From contig NC_135551.1 of the NCBI RefSeq assembly GCF_964340395.1, positions 30,839,455 to 30,903,454 of the forward strand: DNA of 64,000 nt, given 5' to 3'. Made by a program: the position numbers and the translations under genes. Every line of letters begins with the position of its first letter. Positions within the stretch are counted from its first letter, which is position 1. This document shows, piece after piece, positions 27,172-63,479 of this stretch. The notes below the pieces were generated by a model, which was given only the letters and a program-made list of their open reading frames with translations, was not told where the DNA came from and ran no database searches. Source of the stretch: Glandiceps talaboti. Lineage: Eukaryota > Hemichordata > Enteropneusta > Spengelidae.

Positions 27172-30100
27172 CTATCTTTTTTCACAATCTTTCCTTACCT
27201 GATAATCAGTGTCTGTAAGCAGTCCATCAACACTCACAATTTGATACTGACGTGATCTGACGTATGCTAGTGGTTTACGAAGACTACGCATCATTTGAGA
27301 TGTGATACTACTCGTTAGTAAGATTCTCATTGTTTTTGTAGACTGTCCTGGGTCAAAGAGTAAAAGTCGAATACTTGAATCTTTCATCTGTTCATAACCC
27401 ACTATAGTCCTACTGTGACCTGAAACAAAAGAAGACATTGTCTTAGTTTTATTTATCTCAAGTCTGTCTTTTTCTATACAATTTGTTTTATCTCTTTGCT
27501 GTATATGTAATGTACAAGCCAAGTTGAATGCATTTGAACATAGTGGGTGGAGGGTGTATGGTTTGAGCAAAAAATATGGGATTTATATGTCACAATAATG
27601 CAGGTGTATGTCATTAATTCTGTGGTGCTCAAAATATGAATCAAAACTATTCTAATCTCCAATATTTTTCAAAATTTTTAATAAATTACACTTGAGGTAG
27701 TGACCTAAGGGGCTGTCAGTACTCATTTTCTACTTGAATTGTCAAGGCTCCTTAGGTCACTTGATATTTTCCTTCACTGAATGAAGAAAAATATGTGGGA
27801 AATAATAAATATCTCACCTTCATGTTGTAAGTACAAAGGGGTTTTGTTTGTTTGTATCACCCCTTGATGACTTCCTTCATCAAAATATCTTTTGATCCAT
27901 GTAAATAACTCAGGATGTGTTCCATCATCAGCTGTGGGACGGTGAAAGTCAATAAGTCTGCACCTACAAAGACAGTAATATTGAAATGTTTGTGAAGGAA
28001 GCAATATACACTAAGTCACAATATTCTGTAAGTGAACAAAAAGGACATTTTAATTCTTTTAAACTTTTGTTTTATGGGTCAATATGTCTTGAACATTACC
28101 TAAACAACAACACTGAAACAAGTCTTCAACGAAGACATAGCACCCATTTTAATTTCCTATGTCTGTGGATTAGGTATTACTGCAACAACAAATTATCTAA
28201 CAAACCTTTGCATCTGAGCGTGCTCATTTTGAAATGCAAATTGGCTTTTAAGATTCCTTTTCTTACCTAACAAACAGGGAAGACAACATCGTAACAATTT
28301 CTGAAGCACCAATCCATTTCCTTGTATTACAAACTTGGCCACCAAGCTGCTGACTTCCTTCTACATCAAAACCTTTAGACCAGGCTGCCTCTATCAGTTG
28401 TTGAAGTTTTGGAATAGATGGAATATTATCTCTCTCTGTGAAATAAAATTAATAAGATATAAATTTTGTAAAAAATTCATATACGTCATGTTTAGTGATT
28501 CAGATACTGCATTTACATGTAAAGAATTCTCTTCGGATGATGAGAATACAATTATGTAATTTACATTGTAGGGCACTTTTTTATTATTTTCTTTCTGAAT
28601 AGAGGTGATTGAATAGGCCATTCCACACTGCAAACAGGAAATCGAGAACAGCGCCCTCTCTCAAATTGGGGGTATCATCACCTCATAGCACCATTTATTA
28701 AGAGCTTTGTCCCTTGGTATTCTGTAGAGGTGTAAATCAGGGATATTTTTCATATTGTTCAGATATTGAGGAAAGCAACAGTGCTCTATAATTAACTGAG
28801 TAAACTGTACCATGTATACCTGAGGTACTTAGAGACAGGAAGTAGCGCGCCACCATGTGGCAAATTTTGGAAATGTCTATTGAAGCTCTTGATGGCTCAT
28901 ACTCACTGTTAAAAACTTTGTCACTGTATTGTGGATCTTGAAGCATGGCTGAAAGTAGCATTTGTACATTCCTGTATCCACAACCCCAACCTTTATCACC
29001 ATAGCTGGCTGCAAAATGATCTGTTGGTACACACAGTTTGGCATAGTGCACTCCATAGGGACGTCTGCTTGCACTATAGTATGCAGTCAATTTCTCAATA
29101 ATGCCTACAGACACAAAATAACAGAAAATGTAGTCTTTCAGTCATATGGACATACATAAAGAACTTATCTCTCTTCTGAGCCAATTTGACATGCCACTAA
29201 AGTAACACTATTTAAGTTTTTGTGATACACTAAAATTTGGTTTTCACCGATACTACATCACAATATGTAGTGACTCACCTAGCCTTAAAATATGTAGTAA
29301 CTCACAAAATTCATTTTTTTAAAATTATTTTGACTGCTGTTTACAATACCTGATTATAAGAATACAATTTGTTACCTTTTGTTCTTGACTTTCCATCATC
29401 TACCCCTAAATTCTGTGAAATCTTCATCTTTCTTTTGTAGTCATGGAAACTAGCAACATCCATTTCTCCATTCCAAACAGCTTTTTCTAGGTTTCTTTCA
29501 GACTGATGTCTAAAACTGCCTTTATTATCCATCCCATATCTAGCCTGATACACATACATTAAATAAATAAGATACCATAAAGAGTATAATAAGAAGAGTA
29601 CTACCTTGAATGTGTCATATACATATCCAGAAAGCTTTTAGTGTATGTATGTCTATGGTTGTTCTATACTGGACGTCAAACTTGGAATTACATCATGTAT
29701 GCATATTATCGACATCAGAGTAATGGAGATTAGTGACCATCCCAGAATTGTACAAGTCTACATGTAGCGAGACACTACGGTTGGTGTCATTGGGTACTGG
29801 AAATATCTAGAGACCATCCATTACAAATACAAAGGAGTGTCAAATCAAAATGATGTCATCACCAGAGGTTTTCCCAGAAACCATTGCAGTCAATTTCCAA
29901 AATGGCTGAACACATGCTCGGAGTCAGTGTAGAAGGGCTTCTTTACAAGATTTCAAAGTTGAGTAAGTTACCAAGGTGCTAAATCCAAAATCATACTGTA
30001 AGTTGATAAAAGTAATCAACACGTGTGATAAAGGCAGAAATAAAGAAATAAGTTAAAAGTCGGACTGGACTTTTTCTTTAAAATACAAACCTGTAATCTT

Positions 30101-63400: not shown

Positions 63401-63479
63401 TGGCTTTGTTCTATTTCAGTTGAGGTTAATGCAGAGTGAATTACGTATTGAAGAGGTTGTCAAAGATAGAAGTTTGAAG
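60417..63479 (+). CDS. MIX23: MIX23 (CCDC58), mitochondrial intermembrane-space protein; last exon outside window
   Basis: Exons 60417-60467, 62158-62283, 62823-62969 and 63420-63479 encode 128 in-phase residues, and a donor AAG|GTAAGT follows. The sequence matches CCDC58 throughout: [36 protein letters not shown]...[46 protein letters not shown]. Conserved cysteines are present in VTC, TCKRL, KKC and NCRE. The usual C-terminal segment of about 15-20 residues is not found before base 64000. Yeast Mix23 supports import into the intermembrane space under stress. Confidence 0.92.
60468..62157 (+). other. MIX23 intron 1
   Basis: No coding sequence seen. Contains an (ATT)n run at 61509-61541 and a CATA/CGTA tetranucleotide tract at 61856-62066, whose open frames are repeat artefacts. 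Confidence 0.7.
61856..62066. repeat. (CATA)n / (CGTA)n microsatellite
   Basis: Long tetranucleotide tract of ACAT, with stretches of self-complementary ACGTACGTACGT. Confidence 0.95.
62403..62722. repeat. 40-bp minisatellite, 8 copies
   Basis: AGCAGATATCCTGACATGGC and AATCTGTGTTGGATATCAGT at 40-bp spacing in MIX23 intron 2. GATATC at both ends makes units partly palindromic. One unit carries extra bases near 62640. Confidence 0.93.

Follow-up and report, generated by a model that had tools for sequence, protein, structure and literature searches.

A probable ancestral ZUP1, FAM162, KPNA1/5/6 and MIX23 neighbourhood differing by a proposed local inversion from its two vertebrate counterparts

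The window analysed here, a stretch of DNA of 64,000 nucleotides with a GC content of 35%, carries ZUP1(-), FAM162(+), a KPNA1/5/6-type importin alpha(-) and MIX23(+) as an adjacent run between positions 27172 and 63479. In the vertebrates compared, these housekeeping genes are found on two chromosomes, in two paralogous neighbourhoods, each of which has three of the four in common with the window. The run is a case of ancestral microsynteny with a local inversion. In the reading that we prefer, and to which we give a probability of about four in five, an old four-gene neighbourhood would have undergone differential loss after duplication and one inversion of its core would separate the lineages, decay rather than promoter constraint accounting for what is left of it.

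The genes were modelled by hand as spliced coding sequences and the models were checked by script. GT-AG borders are present at all 21 modelled introns (KPNA 10, ZUP1 6, MIX23 3, FAM162 2), whose lengths range from 130 to 2615 nt. ZUP1 (ZUFSP, a K63-type deubiquitinase; 32362..27172, minus strand) comprises seven modelled exons (32362-32191, 30842-30091, 29544-29376, 29104-28907, 28435-28267, 27963-27818 and 27419-27172). Its C-terminus is uncertain: a GT donor lies immediately 5′ of the read-through stop, and a further exon may follow. A head-to-head interval of 1444 bp, start codon to start codon (32363..33806), leads to FAM162 (33807..35347, plus strand; 179 aa; exons 33807-34011, 34622-34739 and 35131-35347). 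FAM162 and KPNA are placed tail to tail across 12,979 bp (35348..48326), where the observed/expected ratio (o/e) of CpG is 0.22. No gene was recognised in this 13-kb gap, and the Pfam search of 12 of its 28 ORFs of at least 70 aa gave no match above the cut-off. KPNA (57815..48327, minus strand; 529 aa) has 11 exons encoding an IBB domain and Arm repeats. A second head-to-head interval (57816..60416; 2601 bp, start codon to start codon) separates it from MIX23 (CCDC58; 60417..63479, plus strand), modelled with four exons in the window (60417-60467, 62158-62283, 62823-62969 and 63420-63479) and with a final coding exon past the window end. Scans of the window for tRNAs and Rfam families at default thresholds returned no match. 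Together with the Pfam and PDB comparisons given below, the spliced models confirmed the four genes that a sequence-only reading of this DNA had placed at 27172..63479. The bounds are exact, since the final modelled exon of ZUP1 ends at 27172 and MIX23 exon 4 at 63479.

The family assignments are as follows. ZUP1 carries the Pfam domain Peptidase_C78 (6.4e-52, over the curated cut-off) and its best PDB match is 7oje, ‘Lys-63-specific deubiquitinase ZUFSP’ (1.1e-95). Its motifs for Cys (GWGCGYRN), His (GHSRT) and Asp (DPG) are all present and align with 7oje. For N-terminal zinc fingers, the matches obtained (zf-Di19 0.00057, zf-C2H2 0.00066) were both below the curated cut-off. MIX23, of which we take CCDC58 to be the older name, matches the Pfam family MIX23 (2.9e-11, score 44.5 for a cut-off of 25) and has an identity of 55%, across 128 aa, to a provisional human MIX23 sequence. 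FAM162 matches DUF1075 (2.7e-23, over the curated cut-off; profile positions 33-144 of 158). Its identity to human FAM162A and FAM162B, both provisional sequences, is 32% over 79 aa and 33% over 81 aa, respectively, and these two are 47% identical to each other over 116 aa. FAM162A and FAM162B thus appear mutually closer than either is to the window protein, which is consistent, though weakly, with a FAM162 lying outside the A/B split.

The importin matches the Pfam families IBB (2e-27), Arm (2.8e-93) and Arm_3 (3.8e-22), all over the curated cut-off. Among the best 60 of its 160 PDB matches, importin alpha-7 (799 bits) and alpha-5 (779 bits) stand at the top, followed lower down by 4rxh (595), 4b8j (574), alpha-3 (522) and alpha-1 (517 bits); we take the 4rxh and 4b8j chains to be fungal and plant importins. 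Alpha-7 is named KPNA6 and alpha-5 KPNA1 in the excerpted text of PMC12474298. Identity is 76.9-77.5% to KPNA1/5/6, 61.6% to the fungal row of the alignment and 50.1-50.2% to KPNA2 and KPNA3/4. Trees were built from seven rows: the window protein, four rows taken from PDB (KPNA1, KPNA6, KPNA3/4 and KPNA2), a fungal chain, and a provisional KPNA5 sequence. The group of the window KPNA with KPNA1/5/6 obtained an ultrafast bootstrap of 99 with LG+G and 96/96 with LG+C20. The vertebrate KPNA1/5/6 trio, to the exclusion of the window KPNA, obtained 97 with LG+G and 86/89 with LG+C20, the latter falling short of the thresholds set by the tool (95 and 80). As placed by these seven sequences, one of them provisional, the window KPNA is probably sister to KPNA1+5+6 and branched before their split. 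The tree check proposed with the sequence-only reading hence puts it outside the vertebrate trio and within the KPNA1/5/6 group. A KPNA exon of 118 aa was also compared with prokaryotic and viral contigs, in which 57 and 7 pattern hits, respectively, were obtained and none was confirmed.

Vertebrate gene orders were taken from published gene lists, as given in excerpts of the papers, which we assume to be positional and which cover amniotes (human, mouse, chicken and cattle). The excerpt for human 3q lists KPNA1, WDR5B, FAM162A, CCDC58, CSTA and CASR and places a variant of the KPNA1 3′ UTR at 122.4246 Mb and one of a FAM162A intron at 122.3890 Mb (PMC12869084); these positions imply that KPNA1 has its 3′ end towards FAM162A. 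In a mouse passage Fam162a adjoins Ccdc58; Csta and Stfa2l1 are also named there and Kpna1 is unmentioned in that passage. Combined, the human and mouse passages imply that FAM162A and KPNA1 are convergent in mammals. The list for chicken chromosome 1 is CD86, CSTB, CCDC58, FAM162A, KPNA1 (PMC12937304). For the second neighbourhood, chicken chromosome 3 is listed as RFX6, GPRC6A, FAM162B, KPNA5, ZUFSP, SOT3A1L, RWDD1 (PMC8130382, in which ZUFSP is given as ZUP1) and cattle chromosome 9 as RFX6, GPRC6A, FAM162B, KPNA5, ZUFSP (PMC5070821). A human 6q list contains ZUP1, KPNA5 and FAM162B, though its positional order is not strict (PMC9318831).

Compared with the window, the human 3q21 neighbourhood (CSTA-MIX23-FAM162A-WDR5B-KPNA1) and that of chicken chromosome 1 share three of the four genes and the convergence of FAM162 and KPNA. 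They differ in that ZUP1 is absent from these lists and that MIX23 lies on the 5′ side of FAM162, whereas it lies on the 5′ side of KPNA in the window; in the human list, WDR5B stands between FAM162A and KPNA1. The GPRC6A-FAM162B-KPNA5-ZUP1 neighbourhood of chicken chromosome 3 and cattle chromosome 9 (human 6q22) also has three of the four genes in common with the window. MIX23 is absent from the two lists, and ZUP1 is beside KPNA instead of beside FAM162.

The excerpted lists thus bear out the two vertebrate neighbourhoods that the sequence-only reading had named, MIX23-FAM162A-KPNA1 (human, chicken) and FAM162B-KPNA5-ZUP1 (chicken, cattle), and fit its proposal that ZUP1 and MIX23 were kept on different vertebrate copies. 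That reading had further proposed a single pre-duplication block, later split, whose order would be the one preserved here. The first part is well supported: since MIX23 accompanies FAM162A-KPNA1 and ZUP1 accompanies KPNA5-FAM162B, one pre-duplication neighbourhood probably held ZUP1, FAM162, KPNA and MIX23. The second part, an order predating the duplications, did not hold. The window order is ZUP1-FAM162-KPNA-MIX23, whereas the vertebrate lists merge into MIX23-FAM162-KPNA-ZUP1; FAM162 and KPNA are exchanged relative to their flanks. Cut to three genes, the window order differs from both vertebrate copies. Gene loss by itself yields both copies from only one of the 12 unsigned orders, an order other than that of the window. 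The same was obtained with signed orders (1/192, window order excluded); this signed test uses presumed vertebrate strands for ZUP1 and KPNA5, whereas the unsigned test is independent of strands. Gene content, order and strands in the window, and the conflict of this order with the published lists, are direct observations.

A single inversion of FAM162+KPNA converts the window order into the compatible signed order. As 10 of the 192 orders lie at most one inversion from the compatible one, this one-step closeness is by itself weak evidence, and it is gene content that carries the case for common descent. Sequence shared around the two head-to-head intervals did not exceed controls: the best match scored 26.5 bits, against 28.3-39.2 bits for the ten highest of 40 shuffles made in two-base blocks. 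The lack of a breakpoint trace is as expected for an old event.

From these data we infer that the block is of common descent, that one inversion took place and that there is no promoter-pair constraint. The window would hold one copy of the old ZUP1, FAM162, KPNA1/5/6 and MIX23 neighbourhood. Vertebrate genome duplication would have copied the block, after which ZUP1 would have been lost beside KPNA1 and MIX23 beside KPNA5. The convergent FAM162 > < KPNA pair would have been inverted once, as a unit, on the path that joins the lineage of the window to the vertebrate stem. Because this core pair is convergent, a flip keeps ZUP1 and MIX23 each head-to-head with a core gene and exchanges their partners. 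The head-to-head pairs are ZUP1/FAM162 and KPNA/MIX23 in the window, and would be MIX23/FAM162 and KPNA/ZUP1 in vertebrates. The proximity of the genes could then result from the ordinary slow decay of gene order, with no particular promoter pairs needed.

Two placements of the inversion can be opposed. It may have occurred in the window's lineage, the merged vertebrate order MIX23-FAM162-KPNA-ZUP1 being ancestral; we hold this to be slightly short of an even bet. The two vertebrate copies agree and both are derivable from one common order by loss, although they count as a single witness because they descend from one ancestor, and the window contains no repeat marking a recent flip. Somewhat less probable is a window order that is truly ancestral, with FAM162-KPNA inverted in the stem lineage of vertebrates ahead of the genome duplications. 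An arrangement differing from that of the window is indeed common to both vertebrate copies, and in the excerpted lists GPRC6A and CASR, presumably paralogues, are found to the same side of FAM162 in the two neighbourhoods, so that a vertebrate flip, if any, would most simply have preceded duplication. A flip in the window's lineage is nevertheless equally short, either placement requiring one event. We also considered, as a less likely proposal, that the older order was kept in the window and that the vertebrate stem flipped the convergent module between divergent promoters before duplication, pairing ZUP1 with KPNA and MIX23 with FAM162. Since the module is convergent, such a flip would carry no cost in promoter geometry, and in the evolution of animal gene order convergent pairs lying between divergent promoters may then be favoured as units of inversion.

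The block could instead have been kept by function, two CpG-rich bidirectional promoters co-regulating the head-to-head pairs. CpG-rich stretches are present in both head-to-head intervals: 33151-34300 in the ZUP1/FAM162 interval, at the FAM162 start, and 57601-58100 (with just 9 CpGs) and 59251-60900 at the KPNA/MIX23 interval. The head-to-head partners differ, however, between the window and vertebrates, so that no particular pair is conserved, and the head-to-head geometry is preserved automatically by the flip. If the intervals are shared promoters, partners that are not conserved would argue against pair co-regulation as the cause of proximity, and we consider this explanation improbable. 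That the adjacency, read from one assembly, arose by secondary convergence or an assembly join and not by inheritance is very improbable, as the four genes all correspond to members of two paralogous neighbourhoods of vertebrates, the convergence of FAM162 and KPNA is shared by both lineages and the window is without N bases. Judging from the number of genes, four adjacent genes matching two paralogous vertebrate neighbourhoods are not a pattern that chance would give. That independent translocations produced the two vertebrate neighbourhoods would be unparsimonious, and this reading was set aside.

An old neighbourhood with one inversion can be compared to the chordate linkage groups, in which, according to the excerpts seen of Simakov et al. 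2020 (PMC7269912), linkage was kept and inversions, along with rearrangements of other types, largely scrambled the order. The likeness lies in linkage kept for more than half a billion years and split by the vertebrate duplications; the difference is that the four genes of the window are adjacent bar one flip, whereas order within the linkage groups is largely scrambled (PMC7269912). As a well-preserved remnant, a run of four genes with a single flip inside agrees with this picture. To the known kind of ancestral microsynteny that vertebrate duplication has split, the window block adds a case. No description of the block as an ancestral unit was found in the text accessible to our literature search, the coverage of which leaves most subscription papers outside. 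The block offers a small clean case of differential loss after vertebrate genome duplication that is readable from an outgroup. It also calls for caution, since being unduplicated is not enough for a block to reveal the ancestral order: what it documents is an old neighbourhood rather than an exact ancestral gene order.

The base composition of the window was also analysed. Over positions 1-64000, CpG has an o/e of 0.29, with 1.38 for TG and 1.41 for CA, and the CpG value falls to 0.19 outside the coding exons of the four genes and the CpG-rich stretches. Judged from base composition, this strong, vertebrate-like depletion suggests global CpG methylation in an apparent invertebrate. It is found alongside an importin in which 23% of places differ from human KPNA1 and KPNA6. 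An annelid (Platynereis), a sponge (Amphimedon) and a crustacean (Parhyale) have been noted for vertebrate-like methylation (PMC8330077, excerpt). Xenoturbella, which came into consideration as the host on account of the depletion, is disfavoured: its published GC content of 43% and median intron length of 131 nt (PMC11521371) contrast with the 35% GC and the 21 introns of 130-2615 nt of the window. An o/e of at least 0.75 was reached in 86 of 1271 windows, which define seven CpG-rich stretches. Four of these are at or just before gene starts (12101-13450 and the three described above) and resemble the CpG islands of a genome low in GC, whereas the remaining three (8601-9100, 49901-51500 and 61101-62200) are away from gene starts. 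The 1.6-kb stretch at 49901-51500 (o/e 0.91) lies nearly entirely within KPNA intron 7 and contains no recognised gene. It may represent an internal promoter or have been inserted recently.

Upstream of the block, the window contains the 3′ part of a Tub-domain gene (2509..5568, plus strand), which is probably TULP4. Pfam Tub matches were obtained at 2919-4280 (1.2e-13) and 5428-5568 (6.1e-11), and at 2509-2877 (0.004) below the cut-off. A C2H2 zinc-finger gene (approximately 13598..23637, plus strand) lies between the Tub gene and ZUP1, with a Pfam zf-C2H2 match on 13822-14118 (6.2e-10); its ORFs 14971-16797 and 22897-23637 gave no Pfam or NCBIfam match, and the NCBIfam search of three flanking ORFs gave none. 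Several repeats were observed. Two near-identical 60-bp copies at 49424-49547, directly upstream of the KPNA exon 49422-49295, may duplicate the splice acceptor of this exon. In ZUP1 intron 1, a 45-bp minisatellite of about 16 copies (31393-32178) stops 12 bases away from the donor site of exon 1. Two further long minisatellites, with units of 64 bp (11.3 copies) and 45 bp (14.5 copies), occupy 24066-25550 between the zinc-finger gene and the 3′ end of ZUP1.
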